Assembly: GCA_018268255.1 (NCBI GenBank)
Contig: JAFDWX010000005.1
Location: 310,001 to 374,000 of the forward strand
Source: Armatimonadota bacterium
Lineage (GTDB): Bacteria > Armatimonadota > Fimbriimonadia > Fimbriimonadales > Fimbriimonadaceae
Direction of reading: 5' to 3'
Length of the DNA stretch: 64,000 nucleotides
Shown: positions 37,066 to 52,431 of the stretch, piece by piece
Numbering within the stretch: the stretch's first letter is position 1
Layout: the number at the start of each line of letters is the position of its first letter
Translations under genes and position numbers: made by a program
Notes under the pieces: model-generated
Database searches by the model: none
The model's input: only the letters and a program-made list of their open reading frames with translations
Told to the model about the DNA's origin: nothing

Positions 37066-40000
37066 CTAGTCGTCGCCAGCCATGTCGAAGTTCTGGGACA
37101 AGATCACATAGTCGAAGATCGTCACCGCTCCGTCGCCGTCCAAGTCGGCTTCAGGATTGAAGTTGGGATCTCCGATTGATGAGTCGAAGGCCTCCGATAG
37201 CGCGGAGTAGTCGAAGATCGTGACGAAGTTATCGCCATCCACATCGGCATTAACCGTGCTGAACGATGCAGTCGTGCTACCCGTGCTCAGGACGTTGACA
37301 TTTGCATTCACCTTTCGCAACCAGTGCGAAGGCTTCACCGCCAAGTCATACGTTCCGAAGAGCACCGGAGCCGTGAACACGTAGTTCCCGTTCGTGTCGA
37401 GATCGGCACCCGTCAGAGTCTTGGTGAACACTGCCGTGGTCGTTCCGGTATTCCGGACTTCGAACGCAACGGAGATGTCGTGCTTGTCGCCCAGGAAGTC
37501 TCTTAGATCGACACTCAAGACAAAGGTCTTGTCGGAGACCGACGTGTTGATCTGGAAGGTCTTCTGGTCGGTGCCGCCTGCTCCATCCGAAACCTTGTAG
37601 GTAACGGTGTAGTTGGTGCCGATTTGGGCGTTTGTCGGGGTCCAGTTAATTGCACCGGTTCCCGAGTCGATGGTCATTCCCGTTGGTGGCGAAACCAGCG
37701 AGTAGCTCAAGGTCTGTGCCGGCAGATCCGGATCTGTTGCGTGGGCTGTGACAGCCAAGCTGTCTCCGTCGTGCAACGTCTGATTGGCGATCGCATCCAG
37801 AACTGGGTTCTGATTGACTTCGTTCACCGTCACAGTAATGTTCTGATCTGCGGTCAGATTCCCAGGGCCGTTGTCCGTCACGCGAACGATGAACGGATAG
37901 CTGTTCGGACCTTGGTCTTCGGCTGGGGTCCAGTTGAAGACACCGGTTGTCGGGTTGATCGAAGCACCAGTCGGCGCGCCAACCAAGGAGTACGTGAGCG
38001 TTTGAGCAGGAAGGTCTGTATCCGATCCGACCGCCGTGAATGTCAGGTTCGTGCCTTCGTTGACCGTCTTGTTGCCGATGGTTGCCAGCGTTGGAGCAAC
38101 GTTGACCTCGTTCACCGTGAACCGAATCACCTTGTCCCCAGAAAGCGCGGGGGATCCGTTATCGGTTGCGCGGACTGTTACGTCGTAGACACCAGGACCT
38201 TGGGCTTCCGTTGGAGTCCAAGCCAGAACTCCGCTCGATGGCTGGATCGACATTCCCGAAGGAGCGTTGACCAAGCTGAATGTAACGGTCTGGGCCGGAA
38301 GATCGGAATCGGTCGCGTCGTAGTTGAAGCTGTACAGGGTTCCTTCGTTGATGGTGACATCGCTGCCGTTGGAGACCACCGGCGCAACGTTAACTTCGTT
38401 GACGGTGACCGTGATGGTCTCACTATCCGAGAGGTTCGGTGAACCGTTATCGGTAACGACAACATCAAAGGAATAGCTTCCGGGTCCTTGGGCCTCTGTT
38501 GGAGTCCAAGTGAACACGCCGCCTGCTGTAATCGAAGCTCCGCTTGGAGCTCCGCTCAGCGAGAAAGTCAGACCGTTGTTTTCGGGATCTGTCGCTGTCG
38601 CGGTGAATGAAAGGGGTGAGAGTTCGTTGACCGTTTTGCTGCCGATCGCGCCGAGGACCGGTGGCTGGTTGCCGCCCGCACCCGGTGTCATCGCGACGAT
38701 GAGCTTGTAGAGTTGAACCCTTGAAGAAGTGAACGTTCCGCTGGAGTTCACTTTGACAAAGTACGTGCCTGCGGCCGGGAACGATCCGGTTGCCACAGCA
38801 TTGGTACCGAGCGATGCGGCGGTGCCAGTGCCCAGCAGAGACGAGCCATCCGTGGAATACCCGGAAACCTGGAGCTTGACTTCATTCTTCGAGTTCAGCG
38901 TGTTGCCGGAGTTGCACGCACCCGTAGTAGAGTTTTGCGTACTGTCGTCGTAGCTCGAACCGATCGGAGTTGCCGTCAGAGTGAACGTTGCAGGTCCGTC
39001 TGTGGTGAACTTGAACCAGTCTGTGTCCGGTCCCGTCGGGTGGATACTCAGAATGGCCGAGTTTGCAGGAATCGGCATCGTCGGATAAGCGCTGTTCGCC
39101 GGACAATCTCCGAACGTCGTCGAGCTATTGCTCGAGAGCGCTCCCAAATTGGTGGCCGTGCCGCTTGTCGCGTTGCTCTCGTAAGGATCGCCATACAGAG
39201 CTTCGGCTGCGCGAATATCGTCTTGCTGAGGTCCGTCAAAACTCGTGTTGAGGAACGGCTCCATCAGCTTCGTTCCGTTTGCGGGGCAGACGTGCTGGAT
39301 TCCGATTCCGTGACCGTGCTCGTGGCCCAGCGTATTGCGCAGGAACCGGTTGAAATTCGACGAATTCGCCCAGTTGGCAGCATCGGCGGAGTCGATCACC
39401 ATATTTCCACCAGTTCCACTGGATGGGAAGTAGTTATAGGCGAGAATATTGGAGGCACCGTCGATATAGTGCGAGCCGATGCGGATATCGCCTCGGAGTC
39501 CGGCGGCCCCGCTGTTCGACCAAGCTGTTCCGTCGTCCCAGTCGTTTCCACCAACCGTGATTCTCGTGTAGGTCAGCCCGGTCAACTGGTGCCAGCGAGC
39601 AAAAATGTCGATAAATCGCTGAACCCAAGTTGTGCGGCCACCTTGACTGGAAAATGCCGAGTCCAATGTGGAGAAAAGGATGCTGTTCGCGGTAGGTTCA
39701 CCGGCACCACCTGAGATCGAGAGGCCATCTGGCACAAACGACCAAGTCACCGATGAAGGTGTCCCATTGGTTCCACCGGAGCCGCCGCTGCCGTTCCACC
39801 GGTTGCTGACATAGTAGTCGCGGATGAAATCTGGATTAGTCCACGCACCCTGGTCCGCACCCATCATAGCCTGCAAAAATGCTGCTTGGATGGCTTCTGG
39901 CGTCCCTTCGTCAAAACAGGCCATCACCTTCGCGGTCGGCACGGCCACTCGCTTCGAAAATGGGTCGTTCGGGTTAAGCGGCACGAACATCGTTGGCTTC

Positions 40001-40209
40001 GCCGCACGCTTGAACATCGAGTAGTACTTGTCGAAGACAACCTTGTCCTCGCCGGTGTAGTTGGGCAGCTGCGGCTTGAGCACGCACGGAGCTTCTTCGG
40101 TCCGCGCCTTTGTAGCCGCTTGTATATGATTTAGGAGATTTGGAATAGTTCCCGTTGCCACGGCTCCTAGCGCCAGGCCTAGCAACGCATTTTTAGTACT
40201 AAAGTTCAT
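37066..40209 (-). CDS. Secreted metzincin-like metalloprotease with Ig-like repeats and dockerin-like end
   Basis: About 1047 residues from the ATG at 40209, with a signal sequence (LLGLALGAVATGTIP). The catalytic domain carries HEHGHGIGIQH at residues 296-306, which fits the metzincin/matrixin consensus HExxHxxGxxH, and a later Met in 'TKLMEPFL' that could be the Met-turn. A PPC-type beta domain lies at about 370-500. Four Ig/cadherin-like repeats of roughly 90 residues follow, each with 'WTPTEAQGPGxYxF' and ending 'VNEVNVAP'. The last 150 residues are a beta module (VDLRDFLGDKHD...) plus two calcium-loop repeats (DVDGDNFVTIFDY, DLDGDGAVTIFDY). It is probably an exported protease acting on proteins outside the cell. 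It is monocistronic. Confidence 0.9.
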   Translation of the reverse strand: MNFSTKNALLGLALGAVATGTIPNLLNHIQAATKARTEEAPCVLKPQLPNYTGEDKVVFDKYYSMFKRAAKPTMFVPLNPNDPFSKRVAVPTAKVMACFDEGTPEAIQAAFLQAMMGADQGAWTNPDFIRDYYVSNRWNGSGGSGGTNGTPSSVTWSFVPDGLSISGGAGEPTANSILFSTLDSAFSSQGGRTTWVQRFIDIFARWHQLTGLTYTRITVGGNDWDDGTAWSNSGAAGLRGDIRIGSHYIDGASNILAYNYFPSSGTGGNMVIDSADAANWANSSNFNRFLRNTLGHEHGHGIGIQHVCPANGTKLMEPFLNTSFDGPQQDDIRAAEALYGDPYESNATSGTATNLGALSSNSSTTFGDCPANSAYPTMPIPANSAILSIHPTGPDTDWFKFTTDGPATFTLTATPIGSSYDDSTQNSTTGACNSGNTLNSKNEVKLQVSGYSTDGSSLLGTGTAASLGTNAVATGSFPAAGTYFVKVNSSGTFTSSRVQLYKLIVAMTPGAGGNQPPVLGAIGSKTVNELSPLSFTATATDPENNGLTFSLSGAPSGASITAGGVFTWTPTEAQGPGSYSFDVVVTDNGSPNLSDSETITVTVNEVNVAPVVSNGSDVTINEGTLYSFNYDATDSDLPAQTVTFSLVNAPSGMSIQPSSGVLAWTPTEAQGPGVYDVTVRATDNGSPALSGDKVIRFTVNEVNVAPTLATIGNKTVNEGTNLTFTAVGSDTDLPAQTLTYSLVGAPTGASINPTTGVFNWTPAEDQGPNSYPFIVRVTDNGPGNLTADQNITVTVNEVNQNPVLDAIANQTLHDGDSLAVTAHATDPDLPAQTLSYSLVSPPTGMTIDSGTGAINWTPTNAQIGTNYTVTYKVSDGAGGTDQKTFQINTSVSDKTFVLSVDLRDFLGDKHDISVAFEVRNTGTTTAVFTKTLTGADLDTNGNYVFTAPVLFGTYDLAVKPSHWLRKVNANVNVLSTGSTTASFSTVNADVDGDNFVTIFDYSALSEAFDSSIGDPNFNPEADLDGDGAVTIFDYVILSQNFDMAGDD
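37545..38665 (-). repeat. Four tandem Ig-like coding repeats
   Basis: The metalloprotease gene contains four successive units of about 270 bases, each encoding NEG/NEL..., 'SLVxAPxGxxI', 'WTPTEAQGPG' and 'TVNEVNVAP' or close variants. The middle units are nearest to each other, as expected for duplication within the gene. Confidence 0.85.
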
Positions 40210-40346
40210 GAATATCTCAACCCCATCGGTTGCACCCACGGGGAAGTACCTCCAAAAAAATTGCCGAGTCAAAAGTCACTCAGCCATAGCTTCACTTTAC
40301 AACAGAATCCGCTCAAATCCAAGCTAACCCATGCTGCCATATGCGC

Positions 40347-40391
40347 AAAATTTAGAGCCTCCGGCACTATTACCAAGTGCGAGAGGCTCTT
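40347..40391 (-). terminator. Terminator after histidine kinase gene
   Basis: On the minus strand GAGCCTC pairs with GAGGCTC and, inside, GCAC with GTGC, around a 9-base loop, followed by TAAATTTT. An acceptable terminator for the kinase transcript. Confidence 0.75.
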
Positions 40392-40418
40392 CGATTCTGA
40401 TTGGATTCTGTTGTGAGG

Positions 40419-42161
40419 CTAGTTGTTGATCGCCTTGGCTTCCTCGACATCCAGAGCAACGGGAATTCGAACCCAGAACGTTGATCCGACACCTACAGTC
40501 GATTCGCACCACACTTTGCCCATGTGGACTTGCTCGACGAGGTGTTTGACCAGGAACAAGCCCAAGCCCGTTCCGTAGATCTTGCGGTTGTCTTCGTTGT
40601 TGACTCGGTGGAACCGCTCGAAAACTTTGTTGACGTGATCGGCCGGAATGCCCAGTCCCTGGTCTTCCACGCCCATCAGGACAAACTCTGGAGTGTCCAT
40701 CCGCGCGTGGATGGTGATGTCGCCGCCACCCGGGGAGTACTTGATCGCGTTGTTGAGAAGATTCGTTAGGATCTGGTCAAGCTTGTCCTGGTCGGCAGTG
40801 ATCAGGTTTGGCAACTCGCCCTGAACGTCCAGTTTGAGAACGTGCTTGTTGGTTGCCTGTTGCTGCACCATCTGAACCTTTTTGAGAAGGTCCGGCAGGG
40901 AAACTTCGGTGTAATTCGGCTTAAGCGATTCACCGGCTTCGATGCGGCTCGTGTTGAGCAAATCGTCGATCAGGCGGCGGAGGCGATCGCATTCGTGGAC
41001 GACGATTCCCAAGAATTCTTTCTGCTCGTCGGGACCATAGATTTCATCGTCGATGCCTTCCAGCAAGGTGCTGGAGAAGCCCTTGATCGCCGTGAGCGGG
41101 GTTCTGAGTTCGTGGGAGGCCATCGCGACGAAAGAGCTCTTCATGCGCTCGATGTTCTTGATCTCGGTGACATCGCCGAAGATTGCGACGACGCCGACTT
41201 CCTTCCCATCTTCTCCCTGGACCTTGGCTGCCTGGACTTGATAGACGCGATCGTTCTTCTGAACTTCGATATCCAGTTCGATCGTCGGCATGTCCTGGCC
41301 AGCCTGAACTGCCGTGACTAAGTTCTGGAGTTTGTCATACGGCAGAACTTCGCGGTACTGCTTGCCGATAACATCGTTCCCTAGCGCAAATATCGCGCGA
41401 GCGGACCCGTTCATCTGGCTGATGCGCCCCTCGGGAGAAACCAAGATGAGACCAGCGGTCAAAGATTCAAAAGTCTGGAGAAGTTCTTCGCGCTCTTCGA
41501 CGACCTCTCGATAGAGCTGAAGGTTGGCGATGATCGATCCGACGTTCTTGGCCATGCGCTCCAGCAGGTGCACGTCCTCGTCGATAAAGTCTTCGCCGTG
41601 GCGCTTGTTGAATGCGTGCAGAACGCCGATGACGTTGCGCTCGACGACACGCTGCTCCTCATCGCGCTTTTCGATGACTAGAGGCACCGTGACGCCGTTG
41701 TGTACGCCGAGCATCACCACGTGGTCTTTTTCCGTGCGCTCATCTTGAACCGCATCGTGGAAGATGACGGGCTCACCGGTGCGGAAAACTTCGCCCGAGA
41801 TCCCTTGCGTCGCTCGGACCCTAAAACGGGATACGGTGGATTCTTCGACACCATAGGCTGGTGGAATGCCGATGAGCTCGCCGAGTTCTCGATCGTGGAA
41901 CATGATCACGATCTTTTCTGCCTGGAGAATCATGGCGATGCGCTGAACAAGCCGGCGAAGGGTGGCATCGGCCTCGTTGAGCGGAGTCGCATCGATTCCA
42001 GCGTCACCACCGCCTCTGGGCGGTTGGTTCTTCGCTCCCTTGAATTCGTTCAGTTCGACGTTGAGACGTTCGTTTTGCTCCCGGAGACCACTGTTCTCAG
42101 TCTCCATCTCCTGTATCCGGGCGCGCAGCTTTTCAACTTCCTGATTTACATCCAATTGCAA
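40419..42161 (-). CDS. Sensor histidine kinase with GAF and PAS domains
   Basis: 580 residues from a TTG at 42161, chosen because GAGGAG stands exactly 6 bases before it. The ATG at 42287 would leave only 4 bases to the divergent LON-domain gene and adds a segment without coding character. Residues 5-40 form a coiled coil. A GAF domain fills about 60-215 ('VIFHDAVQDERTEKDHVVMLGVH' region). A PAS domain lies at about 225-335 ('TFESLTAGLILVSPEGRI'). The H-box SFVAMASHELRTPLTAIKGF has phospho-acceptor His350, and the ATPase has NNAIKYS, DQGLGIP and GTGLGLFLVKHL. There is no transmembrane span, so it is a cytoplasmic sensor. No response regulator is adjacent. Confidence 0.92.
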   Translation of the reverse strand: MQLDVNQEVEKLRARIQEMETENSGLREQNERLNVELNEFKGAKNQPPRGGGDAGIDATPLNEADATLRRLVQRIAMILQAEKIVIMFHDRELGELIGIPPAYGVEESTVSRFRVRATQGISGEVFRTGEPVIFHDAVQDERTEKDHVVMLGVHNGVTVPLVIEKRDEEQRVVERNVIGVLHAFNKRHGEDFIDEDVHLLERMAKNVGSIIANLQLYREVVEEREELLQTFESLTAGLILVSPEGRISQMNGSARAIFALGNDVIGKQYREVLPYDKLQNLVTAVQAGQDMPTIELDIEVQKNDRVYQVQAAKVQGEDGKEVGVVAIFGDVTEIKNIERMKSSFVAMASHELRTPLTAIKGFSSTLLEGIDDEIYGPDEQKEFLGIVVHECDRLRRLIDDLLNTSRIEAGESLKPNYTEVSLPDLLKKVQMVQQQATNKHVLKLDVQGELPNLITADQDKLDQILTNLLNNAIKYSPGGGDITIHARMDTPEFVLMGVEDQGLGIPADHVNKVFERFHRVNNEDNRKIYGTGLGLFLVKHLVEQVHMGKVWCESTVGVGSTFWVRIPVALDVEEAKAINN

Positions 42162-42167
42162 GGGGGT

Positions 42168-42173
42168 CTCCTC
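42168..42173 (-). promoter_or_regulatory. Shine-Dalgarno GAGGAG deciding the kinase TTG start
   Basis: GAGGAG on the minus strand lies 6 bases before the TTG at 42161. Accepting it leaves a 130-base gap to the divergent gene at 42292, enough for promoters. Confidence 0.7.
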
Positions 42174-42291
42174 TCGAGAGTGTTCACGATGAGAACGAAC
42201 GAAAATGATACCCGTTTGATCTCCGGCAGACTGAACCTGGGAGAAAAACTGGGCGGGAGAGAAAGAAGGTTCGGTATCCTCGCCCATACGA

Positions 42292-42954
42292 ATGGCTCAC
42301 CTGGAGGAGATGCCTCTTTTTCCGCTCCACACTGTTCTATTCCCATACGCTCAAATGCGACTTCATGTGTTTGAAGAGCGTTATCGGGAAATGGTTCGCT
42401 TTTGCACGGAATTCGATAGGCCATTTGGGGTGGTGCTGATTCGGCACGGCGAGGAAGTCGGCGAGACTGCCGAGCCTTACATGGTCGGAACCGCAGCTCG
42501 AATCCAGCAAGTCCAGACCTTTGATGATGGTCGAATGGACATCCAAATTTATGGCGAGCGCCGCTTTAGGGTCCGCAAATTCGATGAATCCAAGCCTTAT
42601 TTAGTGGGGATGGTCGAGCCCGTGGTGGAGGTCGAGCCCGAGGAACCTGAGCGATTGGATGCTCTCACGATCAAGTCGGAGGAGTGCTTTCGGCTGTGGA
42701 TCGAAGGCCAGCTATCCCGCGAGGACTTGGCCGTGCAGGTTGTTTTTCCCCAGGATCCGCTGCAAGTATCGTTCCTAATTGCGGATTACATGCCACTGGA
42801 AAATTCCCAGAAGCAAATTATGCTGGAGACTACGGACACCGCGGAGCGGTTGGCCTCGCTCATTCCCATTTTGGAGCAGCAGATGCGGGACCAAACCGAC
42901 ATGGCGTTCCGCGTGACGACGGACACTCTCAAGGAGTGGATGAACCCCAACTAG
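42292..42954 (+). CDS. LON substrate-binding domain protein
   Basis: 220 residues starting MAHLEEMPLFPLHTVLFPYA, the start of the Lon N-terminal domain ('LPLFPLxxVLFPG'). 'RLHVFEERYREMV' near residue 22 and 'GVVLIRHGEEVGE' near 45 are typical. There is no AAA or protease domain. Stand-alone LON-domain proteins are common in bacteria and probably bind unfolded or specific protein targets, but their role is not known. The frame is divergent from the histidine kinase. Its end is 18 bases from the convergent PEP-CTERM gene, with no terminator visible between. Confidence 0.9.
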   Translation: MAHLEEMPLFPLHTVLFPYAQMRLHVFEERYREMVRFCTEFDRPFGVVLIRHGEEVGETAEPYMVGTAARIQQVQTFDDGRMDIQIYGERRFRVRKFDESKPYLVGMVEPVVEVEPEEPERLDALTIKSEECFRLWIEGQLSREDLAVQVVFPQDPLQVSFLIADYMPLENSQKQIMLETTDTAERLASLIPILEQQMRDQTDMAFRVTTDTLKEWMNPN

Positions 42955-42972
42955 ATTTTGTTGGTGAATTGC

Positions 42973-44049
42973 CTATTTTCGTCTGCGCTTGAGGAGGGCC
43001 GCAAGTCCGGCACCCAGGACGCCAAGACTGGCTGGCTCAGGGACAATTTCGAAAACGAACGCAGTGTCGCGACCATTGTAATAAGTTCCGCAGGCAAATT
43101 TGCCGTTGCTGGACATTTTTGCTGAGCCGTAAACAACATAACCGTGATTGCCTTCGACCATGTCGGTCATGTTGTAGGCTTTCCCTTGGTCCCACAAAAC
43201 AGTAGCCAGTACTAAGCCTTTGTAGTTTTGGCAATCTGCCAAAACTTGGCCCGAATCGGTAACCCCTTTGAGAGAGAACTCTGCACCTGGCTCATCCGGC
43301 CATTCCAACATGGTAAACACTCCGTTTCGATAGGTCCAAGGACGCCAGCCCGGGTTAGCTTGGTTGGTCATGAATGACTGGCCAACAATGGTGCCGTTTT
43401 GAGACATGTAGCGCGCCATGGATGAGATTCCGGGTGCATTCAGATCAGTGGCGTCAAGTTCCCCGGCACGCCAGTAAATTGCATGTCGATTACCCTCGGC
43501 ATCGGTTCTAATTCCACACAGGTTGCCTGCGCTATCGATACCATTGACATCTGCATTTCCATTCAAGTAGTGATATTGTCCACCGTAATACAGGAAAGGT
43601 TGGTATCCCCATCCACGAATATCTACACCACCAATGAGTCCTGAATCGTTGATGCAGAGCATGTATTGCCCTTTCTCGCCGACAATTGTGCTGACGCCGT
43701 TGTCAAAAATGAATGGGATTCCGGACAGATCTGTCGCGTAACCTGTAAGCCCAACGGCCTTTCCGTTGTAATTCATATCATAGTAGCCGAGCCCTTCATA
43801 CTGATCTGACGGAGCGGGATAATAGCTGACCTTACCATTCGAGTCCCAAAACTTCGTTTCATACGTATTGTAGTTATAGCCCTTCTGACCGTCTCCTATA
43901 GCTTGACCGTTGTTATTAATTACTTGTGGATGCGGTGGCAGGTTATGATTCCTTTCCAATTCACGCCATTTAAGCTTGGGCGGTGCAGCTAGGGTTGCCT
44001 GGCCCATAAGGGCCAGGCAACCTGCGAGCATTGCAGGTTTGTTCGTCAT
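42973..44049 (-). CDS. Secreted PEP-CTERM protein with HAF-like beta repeats
   Basis: 358 residues. A signal peptide (MLAGCLALMGQATLA) comes first. The body repeats a short unit of the type 'INNNGQAIG', 'MNYNGKAVG', 'INDSGLIGG', 'IDSAGNLCG', 'MSQNGTIVG', 'VTDSGQVLA', 'MSSNGKFACG', spaced by about 40 residues; this resembles HAF extracellular repeats and probably forms a beta-propeller. The end is a PEP-CTERM sorting tag: VPEPASLG, a hydrophobic helix and KRRRK, recognised by an exosortase that anchors or releases the protein. No exosortase gene is in the window. The ATG lies 3 bases after the stop of a decayed dockerin-like fragment, so its own promoter is probably the one of the lost gene or lies further upstream. 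Confidence 0.88.
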   Translation of the reverse strand: MTNKPAMLAGCLALMGQATLAAPPKLKWRELERNHNLPPHPQVINNNGQAIGDGQKGYNYNTYETKFWDSNGKVSYYPAPSDQYEGLGYYDMNYNGKAVGLTGYATDLSGIPFIFDNGVSTIVGEKGQYMLCINDSGLIGGVDIRGWGYQPFLYYGGQYHYLNGNADVNGIDSAGNLCGIRTDAEGNRHAIYWRAGELDATDLNAPGISSMARYMSQNGTIVGQSFMTNQANPGWRPWTYRNGVFTMLEWPDEPGAEFSLKGVTDSGQVLADCQNYKGLVLATVLWDQGKAYNMTDMVEGNHGYVVYGSAKMSSNGKFACGTYYNGRDTAFVFEIVPEPASLGVLGAGLAALLKRRRK

Positions 44050-44052
44050 CGC

Positions 44053-44279
44053 CTATTCATCTCCAACTTTTCCGAAGTTACTATTCCAAATGGAATAGTC
44101 ATAGATCGTAATTGCACCATCCAAGTCCGCGTATTCATCACCCACGGCTTCATACTTTGCTCACCCATAGCCGATCACCAGGAACCATACGCCATTTCCA
44201 TCCTCGTTACATACAGATTAACACCACTTGGAGGCGAAGCACCCCGCAAGTTATAGGGAACCAGGGACTCCAGCAAAAA
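44053..44279 (-). pseudogene. Remnant of a dockerin-ended secreted protein gene
   Basis: Reading the minus strand toward the PEP-CTERM gene, the last 36 codons before a TAG at 44053-44055 encode EAVGDEYADLDGAITIYDYS and then IWNSNFGKVGDE, clearly the second half of a dockerin-like pair (compare DLDGDGAVTIFDYVILSQNF at 37066). Going upstream, the same frame has a TGA at 44161-44163 after NEDGNGVWFLVIGYG, and before that the sense passes to another frame (VPYNLRGASPPSGVNLYV). So at least one frameshift and one stop separate the pieces, and nothing remains upstream of about 44280. The usual DG of the calcium loop is also missing (DLDGAIT). I see it as a gene that has lost its 5' part. The intact PEP-CTERM gene starts 3 bases after its stop. 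Confidence 0.7.
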
Positions 44280-44326
44280 CGCTGGCTCGGACACCGCAGA
44301 GCGGCAGGCGTTTGCACTCTCGCTAT

Positions 44327-44420
44327 GCCACGCCCCGGGGCGGGATCCTGGGCGGACGCGGAGCGTCGGGGTCCCAGGATCGGGCGTGGCCTCGGGCCGG
44401 GGCGCTCCCAGCCGCTAGCT
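44327..44420 (-). repeat. GC-rich palindromic repeat, copy A
   Basis: Lies directly downstream of the TAG of the minus-strand DUF899 gene. The unit can fold into a long hairpin: GCCACGCCC (44327) with GGGCGTGGC (44382), GATCCTGGG (44344) with CCCAGGATC (44373), and GACGC with GCGTC around a GGA loop. About 50 bases of this core are identical to copy B at 48692, in inverted orientation. Both copies begin with AGCT right after a TAG stop. There is no T run, so it is not a usual terminator, though it could act as an mRNA 3' stabiliser or transcription roadblock. Confidence 0.9.
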
Positions 44421-44972
44421 CTAGTTGTGAGGCTCCCAGTCGTTGACGCCGTCTTTCAGAAGGTCCATCATTGGCCAAACAGCGCAGTAGTCGTCGTTCG
44501 GGCCGAAGAAGTCTGCTCCCACGCGCGTAATCGTCCCGTCTTCTGCGCGATAAAAGGTCGAATACCCTGGCCAGTAGCCGTTGTCTTCGGTGTAGTAGCC
44601 CATCGCAGTCGTAAACTCCCGCGACGTGTCGGAGGCCATCTCAAAATTCCAGCCTCTTTGAGCCTTCAACGCTTTCTGCTGTTCCAGCGGATCGGGAGAC
44701 ACGAGCACGAACGCGGTCCGTTCCGCAAATCGAGGCACAAAAGCGTTCAGGCCATCCGCCCACAGCGTGCAGTAAGGGCAAGATTCGCCCATGTTGTGGA
44801 TCACGATCAGGTCGTTCTTGTCTCCGAAGAGATCGCTGATCGACTTAGGCCCTTCTGGAGTTTCCAAGGTGAATTCGCCCACAACATCGGGTGTCCGCTG
44901 CTTCCGGAGTTCCAGCAGTTCTTTCTTGAGGGCGGAAATCGCCTTCATCTTGTCGATAATGACTTGGTCCAT
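44421..44972 (-). CDS. DUF899 thioredoxin-like redoxin
   Basis: 183 residues. A thioredoxin fold with 'LIVIHNMGESCPYCTLWADG' near residue 60; the CPYC pair is the expected redox-active dithiol. 'SDLFGDKNDLIV' before it and 'NGYWPGYSTFYRAEDGTITR' later are typical of the DUF899 family. These proteins are thought to be peroxidase- or reductase-like, but no substrate is known. The protein is cytoplasmic by lack of a signal. It is monocistronic, divergent from the sialate esterase gene by about 100 bases, and followed directly by GC-rich repeat copy A. Confidence 0.87.
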   Translation of the reverse strand: MDQVIIDKMKAISALKKELLELRKQRTPDVVGEFTLETPEGPKSISDLFGDKNDLIVIHNMGESCPYCTLWADGLNAFVPRFAERTAFVLVSPDPLEQQKALKAQRGWNFEMASDTSREFTTAMGYYTEDNGYWPGYSTFYRAEDGTITRVGADFFGPNDDYCAVWPMMDLLKDGVNDWEPHN

Positions 44973-45074
44973 GCGCCCAGTCTAGACCAGTCTCTCCGGG
45001 AATTCCAAGACACACCAAAACATGTATTCTCTACTTGTCAGGAGCTACGCATTGGCGCGTATCGGATTATTGCG

Positions 45075-46982
45075 ATGTTGATCACACTGCTAGCACTCAA
45101 TATGCTTGAAAACCCGTCCCTTCCCTTCCTTTCGCCGGTTTTTGCAGACCATATGGTCTTGCAGAGAGACATTCCCAACACCTTCTGGGGGTGGACCAAA
45201 CCCGGCACCGAAGTCGTGGTGAGCGTCGCCGGAAAGTCATTTAGGGGCAAGACTGATCCCACCGGCAAGTGGAGTGTCAAAGTGACTCCTCCCGCGGTCG
45301 GCGGCCCGTACGAAGTTACGGTTAAGGGGGACCAAACCGTAGAGCTCAAGGATGTCCTAGTGGGCGATGTGTGGATCTGTTCCGGTCAATCCAACATGGA
45401 GATGGGCATTACGATGGTGCAGAACCACGAAGAAGAGGTCAAAGCCGCCAATCGACCGACGATCCGACTCATGATGGTCGAGAAGGCGATCTCGTTGGCA
45501 CCCGAGCCGATCACGCGGATCGTTCCGTGGCGAACCTGCACGCCGGAAACCATCGTTCAGAACGGCTGGGGCGGCTTCTCCGCAGCTGGCTACTTCTTCG
45601 GGCGGATGCTGAACGACGAACTCAAGGTGCCTATTGGGTTGGTAGAGAGTTCATGGGGAGGCAGCGTGGCCGAAGCGTGGGTGAGTTCGCCAGGGCTCGT
45701 CTCTGTGAAGGACTTTTCGGCTCAACTCGAAGCCTTGAGCAAGGTCGATCCGAAAGCGCACTCCGGCTATGGAGCTATGGACAACTGGGTGAGCAAGTTT
45801 GACACGCTCTCCAAGCCCAACTCATCTGCGTATCGCGGCGAAACCGATGCAACTTGGAAGGAAGTCAAAATGCCGCAGAATTTCCACCAGCTGGGCATCC
45901 ATGACCACCAAAACGTGGTCTGGTTCGCGCGCCAATTCGAGGTTCCAGGCGGTGGGGAAACAGGAATGCCTTTCCTCGATCTGGGAGGTTCGGATGGTGT
46001 TTCCACGGTCTACATCAACGGCAAGTTTGTCGCCGGTCTCGCGAGCCCGCTTTATAACTTCCAGCGCAAACTGCCGGATGGAATTCTTAAGTCAGGGACC
46101 AACTCCATTGCCATTCGGATGATCGGACACAAGTGGGATGGAGGTTTGACTTGGGGCGATTACCCCATCAATATCCAAACTGCGGACGGCAAACGAGTGG
46201 AGCTTGCCGGCACCTGGAAGATGAAGGTTTCGGCATCGCTGGATGGCCACACCGGGATGCCATTCATGATGGAAGACAACCCCGACTATCCCAGCACCAT
46301 CCACAATTCAATGATCGCGCCGTTGGAGCCGATGGCGATCAAAGGCGCATTGTGGTACCAGGGCGAAAGCAACGTTGGACGTGGCGAGCAGTATCAACGC
46401 CTGCTACCCGCTCTCATTGCGGATTGGCGAAAGGGCTTTGGCGTAGGCGATTTTCCGTTCTACATCGTTCAGCTTGCGAACTACGGCCAGCGACATCCGG
46501 AACCCACGGATAACGGTTGGGCGGAACTTCAAGAAGCACAGAACCTCACCGCACTCAAGGTCAAGAACGCAGGTTTGGCCGTCGCGAACGATATCGGGAT
46601 GCCCAACGACATTCACCCGGTGAACAAGCAGGAAGTGGGTCGTAGGCTGGCTCTCGTCGCTCTCGCTAAGACCTACGGGCAAAAAATTGAGTATTCCGGG
46701 CCAGTGTTCAAAAAAGCTGAGGAGCAAGGGGGCGAGCTCGTGGTCTCGTTCGACCATTCGCTCGGGCTGGAACTGCGTGGCGATACGAAAAACTGTTTCG
46801 CCATAGCTGGCAAAGATGGGAAATTCTATTGGGCAGACGCGCGTATCGAAGACGATACTGTCGTGCTCTTCTCAAGCCAAGTCAAGGTTCCGGTCTACGT
46901 CCGCTACGCCTGGGATGAGAACCCGGCCGTCTGCCTGTACAATGGCGCCGGGTTGCCAGCGAGCCCATTTAGGAACAAATAA
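45075..46982 (+). CDS. Sialate O-acetylesterase (SGNH fold)
   Basis: 635 residues from the ATG at 45075 (MLITLLALNMLENPSLPFLS); the open frame reaches far upstream, but that part lies across the divergent gene and is not coding. After the start, an Ig-like domain with 'FADHMVLQRDIPNTFWGW' near residue 25 leads to the catalytic block 'DVWICSGQSNMEMG' with nucleophile Ser106. A jelly-roll insert is at about 240-400. 'IKGALWYQGESNVGRGEQYQ' near 420 and 'DIHPVNKQEVGRRLA' near 512 supply the remaining conserved residues, the latter with Asp and His. It removes O-acetyl groups from sialic acids or from plant polysaccharides (xylan, pectin). A peptidase gene follows 2 bases after its stop. No strong signal peptide is seen. 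Confidence 0.93.
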   Translation: MLITLLALNMLENPSLPFLSPVFADHMVLQRDIPNTFWGWTKPGTEVVVSVAGKSFRGKTDPTGKWSVKVTPPAVGGPYEVTVKGDQTVELKDVLVGDVWICSGQSNMEMGITMVQNHEEEVKAANRPTIRLMMVEKAISLAPEPITRIVPWRTCTPETIVQNGWGGFSAAGYFFGRMLNDELKVPIGLVESSWGGSVAEAWVSSPGLVSVKDFSAQLEALSKVDPKAHSGYGAMDNWVSKFDTLSKPNSSAYRGETDATWKEVKMPQNFHQLGIHDHQNVVWFARQFEVPGGGETGMPFLDLGGSDGVSTVYINGKFVAGLASPLYNFQRKLPDGILKSGTNSIAIRMIGHKWDGGLTWGDYPINIQTADGKRVELAGTWKMKVSASLDGHTGMPFMMEDNPDYPSTIHNSMIAPLEPMAIKGALWYQGESNVGRGEQYQRLLPALIADWRKGFGVGDFPFYIVQLANYGQRHPEPTDNGWAELQEAQNLTALKVKNAGLAVANDIGMPNDIHPVNKQEVGRRLALVALAKTYGQKIEYSGPVFKKAEEQGGELVVSFDHSLGLELRGDTKNCFAIAGKDGKFYWADARIEDDTVVLFSSQVKVPVYVRYAWDENPAVCLYNGAGLPASPFRNK

Positions 46983-46984
46983 CC

Positions 46985-48691
46985 ATGCCTCATATCGAAT
47001 TCCACCGATATTATCGCTACGTCGAGCTGACCGAGCTTCTTCGGGCATTTGCGGCTGAGTTTCCCAACTTGGTCCAACTGGAGAGCATCGGCCAATCTCA
47101 CGAGGGGAAGGAAATCTGGCTTGTCACGGTGACCAACTCAGGAACGGGAAAAGCAGCCCACAAGCCTGCTTTTTGGTGTGATGGCAACATTCACGCAAGC
47201 GAAACCAGCGCCTCGACCGCCGTGCTGTACCTTTTGAACAAGCTCTGCACGCAATATGGGAAGGATGAGACGATCACCCGAGCCCTGGATACCCGAGCCT
47301 TTTATCTTGTTCCGCGGTTGAATCCGGATGGTGCGGAATGGGCTCTGGAGGACATCCCTCGCATTGTTCGGTCCGGCACGCGGGCTTATCCATTCGAAGA
47401 GGAAGATCCGTACGGGTTGGAGCGCCAGGACGTGGACGGTGATGGCCGCATTCTGAATATGCGCATCCCGGATCCGCATGGGGCGTGGAAGATCAGCGAG
47501 GAAGAACCAAGGCTGCTGAAGCGACGCGAGGCGGGAGAGGTCGGAGGCACCTACTATCGGCTGATGCCCGAGGGTCTGTTCCACAACTTCGATGGCCTGA
47601 CGATGCGCGGTCGAAAGATCCCGCAGGGACTGGATTTCAATCGAAACTTCCCTTCGGCGTGGCGTCAGGAACATGAGCAGTACGGAGCGGGCGACTTTCC
47701 GACCAGCGAACCAGAGATTCGAGCCGCGGTCGCAGCGATTGTGGCCCGTCCAAATATTTGCGGTGCGGTGACGTTCCATACGTTCAGCGGTGTGCACCTG
47801 CGCCCACCCAGCCGCATGGCGGATGATGACATCCCAGCAGAGGACCTTTGGGCTTATCAAACCATTGGAGCCAAGGGTCAAGAGATGACCGGCTATCCCG
47901 CGATCAGCAATTACCATGAGTTTCGATACCACCCGAAGGAAGTGATCACGGGAGTCTTCGATGACTGGATGTACGAGCACCGTGGGGTGTTTGCGTGGAC
48001 CACTGAACTGTGGTCGCCGCAGCGCGAGGCCGGCATTACGGACTACAAATACATCGAGTGGTTTAGGGAGCATCCGTTTGAGCACGATATCCAGATGCTC
48101 AAGTGGAGCGACGAGAAACTGGACGGAGTCGCCCACGTCGACTGGTACGAATTCGACCATCCTCAGTTGGGCAAAATCGAGCTCGGAGGATGGAACAGCT
48201 TGGAAGCGTTCCGAAATCCTCCGCCGAAATTCCTCGAAAGCGAAGTCGCGAAACACAGCGACTGGGTAGTTTGGCAGGCTCTTGTTTCACCCAAACTTGA
48301 GCACAGAGAGACCATCGTGGAGCCGTGCGGGGACGGAGCATGGCGCATTCGCGTGGCGGTTTACAACAGCGGCTATCTACCCACGAATGTTTCTGAGATC
48401 GCCAAGAAGCGCAGCCTGGCAAGAGGCGTCATGGCAGAAATTCGCAGAGATGGCGAGGAGTGGCCTGGGATTGGTACAACCGCACCAAGATGGCTCGTGG
48501 CGGGGCGCCTGCGGGAGACAGGTCCGCATTTGGTGGGCTGGTCGCACGTGTCGGCCGGCGGATTTGGCTGGCAGATGAACGGTACGGACGATATGGCCGT
48601 TTTCGAGTGGGTCGTTTCGCAGCCAGGCTTGTACCAAGTTGTCGCATGGGCAGACCGCGCGGGACGAATCGAGACCCAAATTCGAGTCTAG
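46985..48691 (+). CDS. M14 family zinc carboxypeptidase
   Basis: 568 residues, starting 2 bases after the esterase stop. The zinc ligands are His70 and Glu73 in 'CDGNIHASETSAS' and His265 in 'VTFHTFSGVHLRPPS'. The catalytic Glu is probably Glu341 in 'AWTTELWSP'. 'FYLVPRLNPDGAEWAL' near 107 is the substrate-binding strand, and 'GLDFNRNFPSAWRQE' near 220 holds the Asn-Arg pair that binds the C-terminal carboxylate. The last 180 residues form a beta-rich domain (VAVYNSGYLPTNVSE...). It cleaves C-terminal residues of peptides; there is no signal peptide, so its place is uncertain. Repeat copy B begins right after its stop. Confidence 0.93.
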   Translation: MPHIEFHRYYRYVELTELLRAFAAEFPNLVQLESIGQSHEGKEIWLVTVTNSGTGKAAHKPAFWCDGNIHASETSASTAVLYLLNKLCTQYGKDETITRALDTRAFYLVPRLNPDGAEWALEDIPRIVRSGTRAYPFEEEDPYGLERQDVDGDGRILNMRIPDPHGAWKISEEEPRLLKRREAGEVGGTYYRLMPEGLFHNFDGLTMRGRKIPQGLDFNRNFPSAWRQEHEQYGAGDFPTSEPEIRAAVAAIVARPNICGAVTFHTFSGVHLRPPSRMADDDIPAEDLWAYQTIGAKGQEMTGYPAISNYHEFRYHPKEVITGVFDDWMYEHRGVFAWTTELWSPQREAGITDYKYIEWFREHPFEHDIQMLKWSDEKLDGVAHVDWYEFDHPQLGKIELGGWNSLEAFRNPPPKFLESEVAKHSDWVVWQALVSPKLEHRETIVEPCGDGAWRIRVAVYNSGYLPTNVSEIAKKRSLARGVMAEIRRDGEEWPGIGTTAPRWLVAGRLRETGPHLVGWSHVSAGGFGWQMNGTDDMAVFEWVVSQPGLYQVVAWADRAGRIETQIRV

Positions 48692-48782
48692 AGCTCTGCG
48701 GCGTCGCCGCCCGCCCGAAGCCACGCCCGATCCTGGGACCCCGACGCTCCGCGTCCGCCCAGGATCCCGCCCGGGCGGCTGG
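48692..48782 (+). repeat. GC-rich palindromic repeat, copy B
   Basis: Starts directly after the TAG of the M14 gene with AGCT, then a CGCC-rich stretch, GCCACGCCC (48720), GATCCTGGG (48729) and CCCAGGATC (48758). From GCCACGCCC through CCCAGGATCCCGCCC it is the reverse complement of copy A, and the right end differs (CCGCCCGGGCGG palindrome instead of the outer stem). Both copies stand immediately behind a stop and in the same orientation relative to their gene. Confidence 0.9.
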
Positions 48783-48816
48783 AAATCTCAGTTTTGCTTG
48801 AGGTTGGTGAAGTTTC

Positions 48817-49326
48817 TTATGGCTGAGGCTGTTTCTGTTTTTCCCAAGTAGAGATCAAGTTGTCCCACTGAGCCTTGGCTTCTCCAGTCGCCTTTGTTTG
48901 GGCTATTTTGGCTTGCTGCATCAGCCAATCCCGATGCTTGGGATACTTGTTCCAAGCCTGTTCGAGTACTGGAAAAACCTTGGTCTGAGCGGCGGCTCCA
49001 GCATCCGCGATGGTGCTGGAAATCCACTCCTTGACCTGAGGTGAGAAGCCGACGTCTTGCTCGACCTTCTTCATCATGAGCTGAGCGCGGTCTAGGGTCT
49101 CGGCCCCCTGCTGCCTCATTTTTCCATCGGGGTCCACCTGGTCTGCGACGGCATCCTTGGCTTGATCAACGACCGTGCGCTCTTTGGCTTTCTCGGGAGG
49201 AGCATGCTCTTTCGCGCCCACTACTGTCGGAGGCGTGATGGCCTGTGTGCTTTCCTTTCCCGCGAAGAGAAAGTAACCGATTCCAACTCCGGCGACAACC
49301 AGAAGGGCCGCGATGATAGATTTCAC
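48817..49326 (-). CDS. Membrane-anchored helical protein of unknown function
   Basis: 169 residues from a GTG at 49326 (VKSIIAALLVVAGVGIGY); no other start fits. The first 20 residues form a single membrane span or an uncleaved signal, followed by a linker and a long Gln/Ala/Lys-rich helical region, likely coiled coil, outside the membrane. I do not recognise the family. It could be an envelope spacer protein, by composition only. It converges with the M14 gene across repeat copy B and is upstream-adjacent to the polysaccharide deacetylase on the same strand, with about 70 bases between. Confidence 0.6.
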   Translation of the reverse strand: MKSIIAALLVVAGVGIGYFLFAGKESTQAITPPTVVGAKEHAPPEKAKERTVVDQAKDAVADQVDPDGKMRQQGAETLDRAQLMMKKVEQDVGFSPQVKEWISSTIADAGAAAQTKVFPVLEQAWNKYPKHRDWLMQQAKIAQTKATGEAKAQWDNLISTWEKQKQPQP

Positions 49327-49393
49327 AACCTTCGGTACGATTGCGGGGCCACAAAGGTTTCAGCGAGCCTATGTACTGCGAGTCAACGTGGAG

Positions 49394-50215
49394 TTAGGGT
49401 TTCTTCGTTCCTACTTTCTTTGCCGAAACCGGTTGCTTAATGGTTCCTGCAACGCCTTTTTTGGAGGCCTTGGCTGCTTTTGCCTTTTGTGCGGCTTCGG
49501 CATTGGCTTGGATCTGCTTGTCCCAAACCTCGAGCATTTCTGGCACAGTGATGAACTTGTAGCCCTTCTTTGCCAAAGCCGGGAGAAAGCGCGCAGTGGC
49601 GTCTATGGTTGCCTTTTTCCCAGGACCATCGTGGAGGAGCACAATATCCCCTGGAGCAGCACTGCGAAGCACATTGTAAGTAATGGAATTGGCGTTGCAG
49701 CCTCGAGCAGTATCGGCACCGCTCTTATTCCATAGGATCACGGCATACTTCTGCTGCAGCGCCAGCTTGGTTGTCCAGTTCTTTTGGATACCGTACGGCG
49801 GCCGGAAGAGCACGGGCTTGCCGCCGATTTCCGGCTCCAAGTGTTCGGCAGTCCAGTTCAGTTCTTGAGGCGCACGCTCCTTAGTCGGCTTGGCAGGGTG
49901 TGTCCAGGTGTGGCTCCCCACCGCATGTCCAGCCTCCACACATTTGGTCACCACATCCGGATGTCGCTTGACATAGGAACCTATGGTAAAGAATGTGGTC
50001 TTGCCCTTGTACTTTTTGTATAGCTCCAAGACACGTGGTGTGTTTTTGGGGTCCGGACCATCATCGTACGTGATCGCGATCACTTTATCTTTGATGCCGT
50101 GAGGCTTGTTGAGCACGATTTTGCCCAAGAACCGTTTGGGAACCTGAAGTGAAATTCCAGGCCCCGTAGGATTGGGTGTAGTCCACAAAAAAGCGGCAAT
50201 TGTCAGCGCAACCAT
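49394..50215 (-). CDS. Polysaccharide deacetylase (NodB-type, CE4)
   Basis: 273 residues with a signal-like N-terminus. The NodB motifs are visible: motif 1 'VIAITYDDGPDP' near residue 45, with the catalytic base Asp and the metal Asp; motif 2 'AVGSHTWTHPAK' near 97, with both zinc His; motif 3 'LFRPPYGIQKNW' near 133; and motif 5 'GDIVLLHDGPG' near 187. The C-terminus is Lys/Ala-rich (about 40 residues). It removes acetyl groups from N-acetylglucosamine in chitin, peptidoglycan or a capsule. It is transcribed with the small membrane protein downstream and is preceded by a small secreted protein on the same strand. Confidence 0.93.
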   Translation of the reverse strand: MVALTIAAFLWTTPNPTGPGISLQVPKRFLGKIVLNKPHGIKDKVIAITYDDGPDPKNTPRVLELYKKYKGKTTFFTIGSYVKRHPDVVTKCVEAGHAVGSHTWTHPAKPTKERAPQELNWTAEHLEPEIGGKPVLFRPPYGIQKNWTTKLALQQKYAVILWNKSGADTARGCNANSITYNVLRSAAPGDIVLLHDGPGKKATIDATARFLPALAKKGYKFITVPEMLEVWDKQIQANAEAAQKAKAAKASKKGVAGTIKQPVSAKKVGTKKP

Positions 50216-50248
50216 TTTTGAAATTACTTTGCAGTTAGGGCACTTAGT

Positions 50249-50629
50249 TTAACCCAATTTAATCGGCAGTTCTTTGCCTTTCTCTGCGGAAACTTCAATT
50301 TCATTCTTGAATGTGCGGTTCCCAACGGTCTTCTCTTTTCGGTAGATTCCCGTAACAGTCAATGTCTTGCCGTCCTTAATATCTAACTTCGAATGGCTCT
50401 GCCAATACACATTCACCGAGGTTTTTTTGCCCTTTAGGACGAGAGTGGTGTAGGCGTTGCCTTTCTTGCTTGTATTCTTTTTGTATTCAGAGACGCTGCC
50501 TTTGATCGTGACCGTCTTCTTGTCGTAGGTAGCTGCCTTACTCTCGAAAGTGTCCACATCCAGAACCACGTCTTTGGCAACGGCGATCGAAACCAACGAG
50601 AAAACTAGGAGTGACAAGGGGCGTTTCAT
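50249..50629 (-). CDS. Small secreted OB-fold-like protein
   Basis: 126 residues with a Sec signal peptide (MKRPLSLLVFSLVSIAVA). The mature part has a five-strand pattern, 'YDKKTVTIKGSVSEYKK', 'YTTLVLKGKKTSVNVYWQ', 'DGKTLTVTGIYRKEK', 'FKNEIEVSA', and fits a periplasmic OB-fold like the tRNA_anti-like or YgiW/BOF type, which bind nucleic acids or oligosaccharides. It is very Lys-rich. The function is unknown. It is upstream of the deacetylase with a 33-base gap, and may be its partner. A terminator for the next unit upstream lies at 50645-50681. Confidence 0.75.
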   Translation of the reverse strand: MKRPLSLLVFSLVSIAVAKDVVLDVDTFESKAATYDKKTVTIKGSVSEYKKNTSKKGNAYTTLVLKGKKTSVNVYWQSHSKLDIKDGKTLTVTGIYRKEKTVGNRTFKNEIEVSAEKGKELPIKLG

Positions 50630-50644
50630 CCTCTCATTATGTCA

Positions 50645-50681
50645 GAAAAAAGGAGCCCCATCCCGAGGAGGAATGGGGCCC
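50645..50681 (-). terminator. Terminator after dockerin-like protein gene
   Basis: On the minus strand GCCCCAT pairs with ATGGGGC around an 11-base loop, extended by flanking pairs, and is followed by CCTTTTTT. It ends the prepilin-dockerin unit. Confidence 0.88.
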
Positions 50682-50706
50682 ACAGGCTCACTGTACAGGT
50701 CGAGAA

Positions 50707-52431
50707 CTAGTCTCCGAACATGTCGAAGTTCGTTGAGAGGATCAGATAGTCGAAGATGGTGACGGTGCCGTCTCCATCAAGATCTGCATTAGCAACGAAA
50801 GCAGGATCGCCTGTCGAGGAGTCGAAAGCGTCGGAAAGGATCACGTAGTCAAAAATGGTGACTGCGTTATCGCCATCCACGTCGCCGTTGACCAGGTTGA
50901 AGACCACGTCGGTTGTCACGGGCAGGGTCACGGTCACTGCTTTGCGCAGGTGGTGAGCTGTCTTGACAGCGATCGTAATCGGGCCATTGGGCTGCTGCAT
51001 ATTGAACGCGAACTTGCCGTTGTTGTCCATGTAAGCCAGCTTGTGCTCGAGCACCGTGCCCGAACCGTTGCGGACTTCCACATCTGCAGGAGTGCCGTCG
51101 ATGGTTCCCTGGTAGTCGCCAAGGTTCACTTGTGCCACTACGTTGTTGCCGCTCTTGATGCCTTCGACCTTGAAGTTGTCGATGCGGACCACGTCGCTGC
51201 CAGTATCGCTGGCCGAGTCGTGTGCTGCTTCGAACTCCCACTTGGTCAGACCCGTGATTCCACGGATCGGAGCAGTGCGGAGCGGATTAGCAGCGCGGCC
51301 CTGGAAGGTCGCAGTGCTGCTCAGGGTGTACAGATCCCACTCTTGGTAGTAATGGCTGAATTTGTCGAAGCCATCGTAGGTGGAGTCCTTGATCGCCTTT
51401 CCGCCGAGTCCGTCGGAGAATCCGAATGGTCGGATATCCTGCCCGTTGTCCCAGCTAAGGCCATATGTTGGGAATCCACTGTCGTACCAGTACCACCAGA
51501 AATTCTGAAGGTTGCCAGTCTCGGGATGTGGATTGCGATAGATGTCGTACGAAACGCGAATCGTGCGATAGCCAGCCTTGATCAAGTCACTGACGTTGTT
51601 CCAAGTCGCGTAGGCTTGGTCGCCCTGCGTCTCGCCAACATCAAATCGGATCGACTTGTTGCCCGATGCATCTTCCAATGACACGCTACCTGCCCCGGCA
51701 GTAGACGTCGTCCAAGGGCCTTGGCCGTTAAGGCTGCCAGCGCTGAACCCATCAAAACCGTTGGTATCGTAGATTGTCTGCCACGTGTTCGTGGAGATTC
51801 GCAGGTTGCGGAAGTCGTTGTAATCTTCGTATGGAGGATCGGCTGGATTGGACCAGTCGGTTCCATAGAATCGGATCATGTCGATGTCGGTGGGGTCGAA
51901 GCCGTCGCCGGACAGATTTGTATCCACATAATAACCCTTCAGCAGGTCATTGAGATACATATTGTTGTGGAACCAGGCGTTCTGGTACTTCAACGCATTC
52001 GAGAAGTCCGGTCCCACGTTGAGGCTGTAGTCCCGGTAGCCTTTGATTACGTTGATTGCGTCGCGAGAGTAAACGCGAATAAATACGTTCGCATCTTTCC
52101 AGCGGTTGGTGTTGGTGGGGTCTTGCCAAACTCTCATGTCCCAATCGATCACGGTCGTCGGGTCGGTGATGTTCAGCGCCGGGATTCCGGCCATGTTCAG
52201 GTCGATGCGCGGGGCGTACCACCAGTTGGCACCCAATTGGCGCGATCGCGCGAAACCGCCAAAACCGTCTTCGTCCGGCATGAAGGTTAACGTCGCGTTG
52301 AGTTGAGCGTGAATGGCTTCGCCATTTCCGATGTTGATTCCCGCGTTAAGGGGCAGATACAGCAGGGTTGCGCTAAAGGCATTGCCCGCGAGCGCCATTG
52401 CTAGCGAACTCCAGATGAGCTTCTTTTTCAT
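50707..52431 (-). CDS. Large secreted protein with dockerin-like C-terminal module
   Basis: 574 residues from the ATG at 52431 (MKKKLIWSSLAMALAG), with a clear Sec signal peptide. Residues about 25-410 have no family I recognise; they are rich in Trp, Tyr and Asn ('FWWYWYDSGFPTYGLSWDN') like extracellular beta-sandwich or carbohydrate-binding domains. The last 150 residues repeat the arrangement of the metalloprotease at 37066: a beta module beginning AQVNLGDYQGTID and 'AVKTAHHLRKAVTVTL', then two calcium loops GDVDGDNAVTIFDY and ADLDGDGTVTIFDY, ending NFDMFGD. No cohesin is seen in the window. It follows the DUF1559 prepilin gene by about 90 bases on the same strand and is probably co-transcribed under the LacI-type site at 53350. 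Confidence 0.9.
   Translation of the reverse strand: MKKKLIWSSLAMALAGNAFSATLLYLPLNAGINIGNGEAIHAQLNATLTFMPDEDGFGGFARSRQLGANWWYAPRIDLNMAGIPALNITDPTTVIDWDMRVWQDPTNTNRWKDANVFIRVYSRDAINVIKGYRDYSLNVGPDFSNALKYQNAWFHNNMYLNDLLKGYYVDTNLSGDGFDPTDIDMIRFYGTDWSNPADPPYEDYNDFRNLRISTNTWQTIYDTNGFDGFSAGSLNGQGPWTTSTAGAGSVSLEDASGNKSIRFDVGETQGDQAYATWNNVSDLIKAGYRTIRVSYDIYRNPHPETGNLQNFWWYWYDSGFPTYGLSWDNGQDIRPFGFSDGLGGKAIKDSTYDGFDKFSHYYQEWDLYTLSSTATFQGRAANPLRTAPIRGITGLTKWEFEAAHDSASDTGSDVVRIDNFKVEGIKSGNNVVAQVNLGDYQGTIDGTPADVEVRNGSGTVLEHKLAYMDNNGKFAFNMQQPNGPITIAVKTAHHLRKAVTVTLPVTTDVVFNLVNGDVDGDNAVTIFDYVILSDAFDSSTGDPAFVANADLDGDGTVTIFDYLILSTNFDMFGD

Follow-up and report, generated by a model that had tools for sequence, protein, structure and literature searches.

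A C-terminal X-module–dockerin tag on secreted proteins of an Armatimonadota genome and a candidate PEP-CTERM receptor of predicted cohesin fold

The question raised by the 64,000-nucleotide stretch of Armatimonadota DNA analysed here (the window; part of contig 5 of a 3.19-Mb genome, G000, that is 98% complete) is why two unrelated secreted proteins encoded in it should end in the same module, and what that module is for. The first, P0001 (37066..40209, minus strand), is a secreted M10 (matrixin-type) metalloprotease of 1047 amino acids, with a Peptidase_M10 (Matrixin) domain at residues 194–340 (39190..39630, minus strand; PF00413, E=1.7e-10) and four immunoglobulin (Ig)/cadherin-like repeats; the second, P0002 (50707..52431, minus strand), is a secreted protein of 574 amino acids with no Pfam domain outside the module. 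An earlier note on this DNA had described a common two-part C-terminal module and this description held, as both minus-strand open reading frames were found, their final 149–150 residues are 51% identical and the listed motifs are present (P0001/P0002: VDLRDF/VNLGDY, NGNYVF/NGKFAF, AVKPSHWLRK/AVKTAHHLRK and NFDMAGD/NFDMFGD, with the calcium-loop motifs DVDGDN.VTIFDY and DLDGDG.VTIFDY in both modules). Pfam Dockerin_1 scores 27.9 bits in P0001 and 33.9 bits in P0002, both above the cut-off of 22.9, and as the genome holds 73 matches to the Pfam dockerin family (PF00404) and 81 matches to a profile of the two-part module, the resemblance is far beyond chance. The reading for which we argue, and which we regard as probable, is that the module is the tag of an exosortase-anchored cohesin–dockerin display system in which PEP-CTERM proteins with a predicted cohesin fold would act as receptors.

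The 150 residues with which both proteins end are an X-module followed by a dockerin (XDoc), as judged from a confident model of the fold and from sequence matches. In P0001 the X-module, a transthyretin/carboxypeptidase-regulatory-like beta-sandwich, lies at 37255..37518 (minus strand) and the dockerin, with two F-hand calcium loops and specificity dyads IF/IF, forms the final residues of the protein (37069..37254, minus strand); in P0002 the X-module (the AlphaFold query, model m21049d459fb2) lies at 50893..51156 (minus strand) and the dockerin, again with dyads IF/IF, runs up to the stop codon (50710..50892, minus strand). A module profile built from 70 sequences matched the cellulosomal type II XDocs 4wi0/4u3s in the Protein Data Bank (PDB) with E=3e-13 and with both domains covered. 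The AlphaFold model of the P0002 module has a predicted local distance difference test score (pLDDT) of 95.6, and its best eight VIA matches are all type II XDocs (Z 14.8–15.9 over 139–143 residues, the next unrelated match being at 8.2); Foldseek gave good matches solely to XDocs, at E values of 5e-10 to 2e-8. Across the 70 aligned modules the calcium-ligand columns are invariant or nearly so, and the recognition residues that mark an XDoc, at positions 10/11 of the dockerin repeats, are present. In cellulosomal scaffoldins the pairing of X-module and dockerin is already known as the XDoc dyad (PMC5141474), and the earlier inference that pairing with a second beta domain argues against a dockerin role is thereby overturned: because the X-module accompanies type II dockerins in cellulosomes, the second domain is no sign of another function. 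The module shares with the type II XDocs of Clostridium thermocellum CipA/CipB and Acetivibrio cellulolyticus ScaA the two-domain fold over its whole length, the two F-hand calcium loops, the C-terminal position and the specificity positions 10/11 (PMC5141474, PMC8063739). It differs in that the cellulosomal XDoc is found mainly on a scaffoldin as its anchor, whereas here it is the direct tag of about 80 unrelated proteins, and identity between the two is only about 20–25%. Two divergent dockerins of the same genome (L048:959-1546 and L049:971-3655) fit the XDoc alignment poorly and lack the IF/VF code of this genome.

The position of the module was then considered genome-wide. In 72 of 72 proteins examined in the window's own genome the module ends 0–6 residues before the stop codon, and 71 of the 72 carry a signal peptide by a simple hydrophobicity rule, so that the earlier reading of a C-terminal tag on secreted proteins is supported genome-wide. 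Counting the module in related genomes, as the earlier note had proposed, showed it in 59 of the 113 genomes of the order, at 1 to about 94 copies per genome; it is absent elsewhere, sometimes within the same genus. Among 96 modules from eight further genomes, 90 end 0–3 residues before the stop. In distant families of the phylum (G220, G240, G241), by contrast, the XDoc is internal, and the C-terminal rule is thus true of the order and not of the phylum. The suggestion that the tag is specific to this lineage had to be dropped, as it is spread beyond one lineage of the order. A scan of public genomes for the module returned two loci, both on contigs labelled Chthonomonas sp. UBA2391, and a scan of a plasmid collection gave no match. 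The passengers are diverse and include subtilases, the M10 protease, propellers, and lectin-like and Ig-like proteins; the 25 of 92 passenger Pfam families that were listed include no glycoside hydrolase.

Alignment columns were ranked by how far they are fixed within a genome relative to how far they differ between genomes. The top ten genome-specific columns were loop positions 10, 11, 14, 17 and 21 of both repeats, the X domain being near background. At these five code positions repeat 1 agrees with repeat 2 in 78% of comparisons within a protein, in 74% of those across the proteins of a genome and in 23% of those across genomes, against 17, 14 and 12%, respectively, at ten other dockerin positions. 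Positions 10/11 read [IV]F in the window's own genome, IG in G016, IA in G007, L[TS] in G071, [FL]F in G002 and N[AF] in G004. Orthologous passengers carry the code of the genome in which they reside: P0001 has IF/IF whereas its orthologue in G091 has SD/SD (passenger identity 49%), L027 has IF/VF and its G071 orthologue LS/LT (62% passenger identity), and L009 has IF/IF and its G004 orthologue NA/NA. Positions 10 and 11 are published determinants of cohesin specificity (PMC8063739; PMC5141474 names positions 11 and 12). That contact-type positions are uniform within each genome, and follow the genome and not the passenger, implies from the alignments that each genome should have one shared partner for its dockerins.

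A candidate for a co-varying partner of this kind, for which the earlier note had suggested looking, was found in a family of PEP-CTERM proteins that co-occurs with XDoc, adjoins it and in places is fused to it. Where a genome encodes only one or two XDoc proteins, a gene for a PEP-CTERM protein of 220–260 amino acids is repeatedly the neighbour of the XDoc gene. These candidate receptors consist of a signal peptide, one domain of 170–240 amino acids and a PEP-CTERM; their C-termini are canonical PEP-hydrophobic-basic tails of the type that defines PEP-CTERM proteins, which the XDoc proteins do not have. A profile search of the order found the family in 24 genomes, all 24 of them XDoc-positive; its one match in the XDoc-free genomes of the order is a fragment that contains a stop codon and was put down to chance (the weak matches in G082 and G190 have in-frame stops and were rejected as chance). 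Fisher tests of co-occurrence, taken over about 84 genomes in family f1 with kinship ignored, gave P values of approximately 2e-11 in family f1, 4e-4 within genus g20 and 6e-7 without the profile-source genomes. It should be noted that receptor profile A3 missed the window's own genome; once L026 and the G071 members had been added, four copies were found there, three of them outside the profile. The G051 PEP-CTERM protein in L179 was omitted from the receptor alignment as its link appears to be through the PEP-CTERM tail alone.

In genus g20 the XDoc gene lies directly or almost directly downstream of the receptor gene in all eight receptor-bearing genomes (one gene intervenes in G063, and a contig end cuts the XDoc gene in G051 and in G050, in the latter apparently inside the X domain). 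The window's own genome has one of its four copies (C1:386762-387535) flanked on either side by an XDoc gene of the same strand, and the other three as a tandem array at C8:209.7-212.7 kb; arrays of this kind are also found in G001, G007, G071 and G023. A single 437-residue protein in G004 combines the receptor domain with a C-terminal XDoc, and in G220, G240 and G241 the XDoc is followed directly by the receptor domain in the same chain. In family f19, which lies outside the order and was not used in finding the receptor, the XDoc gene is within about 10 kb of the receptor gene in G179 and G184. The largest tandem array seen is that of four PEP-CTERM receptor paralogues at L201 (G071:C55:42988-46351). 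The proteins with an internal XDoc and then a cohesin-like domain in G241 (L320, 2193 residues) and G240 (L319, at least 1551 residues) are possibly scaffoldin-like.

Sequence searches alone give no hint of what the receptor domain is. The cohesin model (PF00963) gave no match in the window's own genome with the threshold relaxed to E=1, none above the cut-off in the 113 genomes of the order (sub-threshold fragments occurred in four genomes only) and none in 34 receptor domains, which also have no meaningful match in Pfam or NCBIfam. A search of the receptor sequence against the PDB returned urease matches alone, which were dismissed as chance. An AlphaFold model of a receptor copy from the window's own genome, made with a 34-sequence alignment (pLDDT 86, predicted template modelling score 0.86), has as its nine best VIA matches cohesins throughout, from 2vo8 (Z 11.0, with a root-mean-square deviation of 2.6 across 131 residues) to 4dh2 (Z 8.9), and cohesins make up most of the 50 matches. 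The domain is therefore likely, on this model, to have a cohesin fold, and we call it cohesin-like and do not assign it to PF00963. The earlier note had found no cohesin, which remains true of Pfam cohesins by sequence in this genome and in the 113; as a statement that no cohesin exists it is probably wrong, given the predicted fold of the PEP-CTERM family. Compared with the PF00963 cohesins of cellulosomes, Clostridium perfringens and Archaeoglobus, the receptor shares the predicted fold (VIA matches include 2vo8, 2jh2, 2w1n and 2xdh); it differs in being missed by Pfam and by every NCBIfam model, and in being a single domain on a PEP-CTERM protein encoded by separate tandem genes, in place of the tandem domains of a scaffoldin.

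From these results we propose that about 80 Sec-exported proteins across the genome would carry the XDoc at the C-terminus as a tag for docking, and that its partner would be a few secreted PEP-CTERM proteins, each with one predicted cohesin-fold domain too diverged for Pfam Cohesin. If they behave as known PEP-CTERM proteins do, the exosortase would sort these receptors to the cell surface or the matrix, and there XDoc proteins would be bound to them non-covalently by dockerin faces that calcium stabilises (we infer the binding, its location and its dependence on calcium). With a private code at positions 10/11/14/17/21 of both repeats, all tagged proteins of a species would fit its own receptors, and as the repeats are symmetric docking would probably occur in either of two orientations. 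The window's own genome has a single exosortase gene (G000:C8:275541-276308, E=5e-49), and the window itself encodes a PEP-CTERM protein on the exosortase route that lies outside the receptor family (42973..44049, minus strand); the earlier idea of a tag working beside the PEP-CTERM route thus gains substance, since XDoc appears to work together with PEP-CTERM sorting through the receptor candidates. The receptors resemble other exosortase substrates in their canonical tails and in the presence of an exosortase, but known PEP-CTERM proteins bear their own cargo whereas here the sorted protein would be a socket for others. A cellulosome is marked by a multi-cohesin scaffoldin and cellulolytic passengers, and here the receptors have one domain each and are encoded in tandem genes. 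A non-cellulosomal, genome-wide display in Armatimonadota, with about 80 exported XDoc proteins, few exosortase-sorted receptors, a cohesin fold invisible to sequence searches and a species-private code, is a likely arrangement.

Other explanations of the same data have to be weighed. The strict C-terminal place within 0–6 residues of the stop, the dozens of unrelated passengers, the signal peptides nearly throughout and a beta-sandwich of a size akin to the type IX tail could all be accommodated if the XDoc were a secretion signal for an outer-membrane export machine, like the type IX C-terminal domain (Por_Secre_tail), with the PEP-CTERM neighbours as unrelated cargo. The type IX domain is indeed likewise a beta-domain tag that many secreted proteins of a genome carry at the C-terminus, but the tag described here contains a dockerin and has no TIGR04183 match (there is a weak one elsewhere in P0001). 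As the genome-specific, two-fold symmetric positions sit at dockerin–cohesin contacts, the fold is that of an XDoc throughout, the XDoc is internal in three genomes of distant families and a PEP-CTERM family of predicted cohesin fold co-occurs with it, we consider a secretion signal improbable. That the module is no more than an ordinary end cap, stabilised by calcium and binding no partner, with loops that are uniform through recent expansion or gene conversion, is less probable still and in our view very improbable: conservation is higher in the dockerin half than in the X half, so that the former could retain more lineage signal, but in any one genome the X domains and the remaining dockerin positions are free to vary and the contact face alone is fixed, and passengers that are orthologous between genera bear the local code.

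Several observations do weigh against the display system as we propose it. Foldseek matches of the receptor model are weak, with CBM3 (carbohydrate-binding) modules best at E of about 0.009 and cohesins at 0.04–0.1, and in VIA pilin and integrin domains reach Z 8–8.9, so that the cohesin call rests on ranking and context. The Fisher tests take no account of kinship, and as the first receptor seeds were taken from XDoc loci there is some circularity in the first count of co-occurrence; the genomes found later and those of family f19 provide the cleaner test. The code is less uniform in G023 and in G026, the latter showing no uniform code over its 59 copies. Finally, no receptor was detected in XDoc genomes G045, G057, G060 and G073–G075 or in the whole of families f2–f5; in these the tag would have a different partner, a receptor that has diverged further, or no partner at all. 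CBM3 and cohesin are related jelly rolls, and Foldseek's ranking, a fold class common to many binders and the XDoc genomes without the family would suit a PEP-CTERM family of carbohydrate-binding or other surface proteins that merely shared XDoc loci, the true receptor being another protein. Against this, cohesins head the VIA ranking, adjacency is kept in every receptor-bearing g20 genome (two XDoc genes being contig-cut), fusions occur and the family is missing from XDoc-free genomes, and we give this explanation as little credence as the secretion signal.

In non-cellulolytic genomes, dockerins that lack cohesins have long been puzzling. The display system proposed here offers an answer, namely that cohesins may exist, mounted on PEP-CTERM proteins and too diverged for Pfam. 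If this is true, two sorting systems, exosortase and cohesin–dockerin, are joined, a phylum that has received little study gains a logic of surface assembly, and protein engineering can draw on many natural dockerin codes that differ from one another; the approach through adjacency, fusion and code could be reused on other orphan dockerins. We found no paper that joins dockerins with PEP-CTERM, nor any on dockerin tags in Armatimonadota.

Some passengers merit separate mention. Several low-copy genomes have kept an XDoc protein of one and the same orthologous group, which is related to the subtilase at L057:980-3472 (PF00082) and has members in L181 (7727-10246), L172, L179, L180, L183, L184, L087 and L076; this suggests that a subtilase-type protease may be an old client of the receptor. 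Among the orthologues of P0001, that of G098 (L310) has a PEP-CTERM end in place of the XDoc, an apparent swap of sorting tags that fits an exosortase-sorted receptor holding XDoc proteins. Those of family f2 (L292–L295, L297, L299–L304) have a dockerin end without an X-module and with conserved cysteines, most of them having GNGC in loop 1 and ending in FGSGC; this cysteine dockerin is perhaps a disulfide-closed variant, and the display system in family f2 may differ from the type in the window's own genome.

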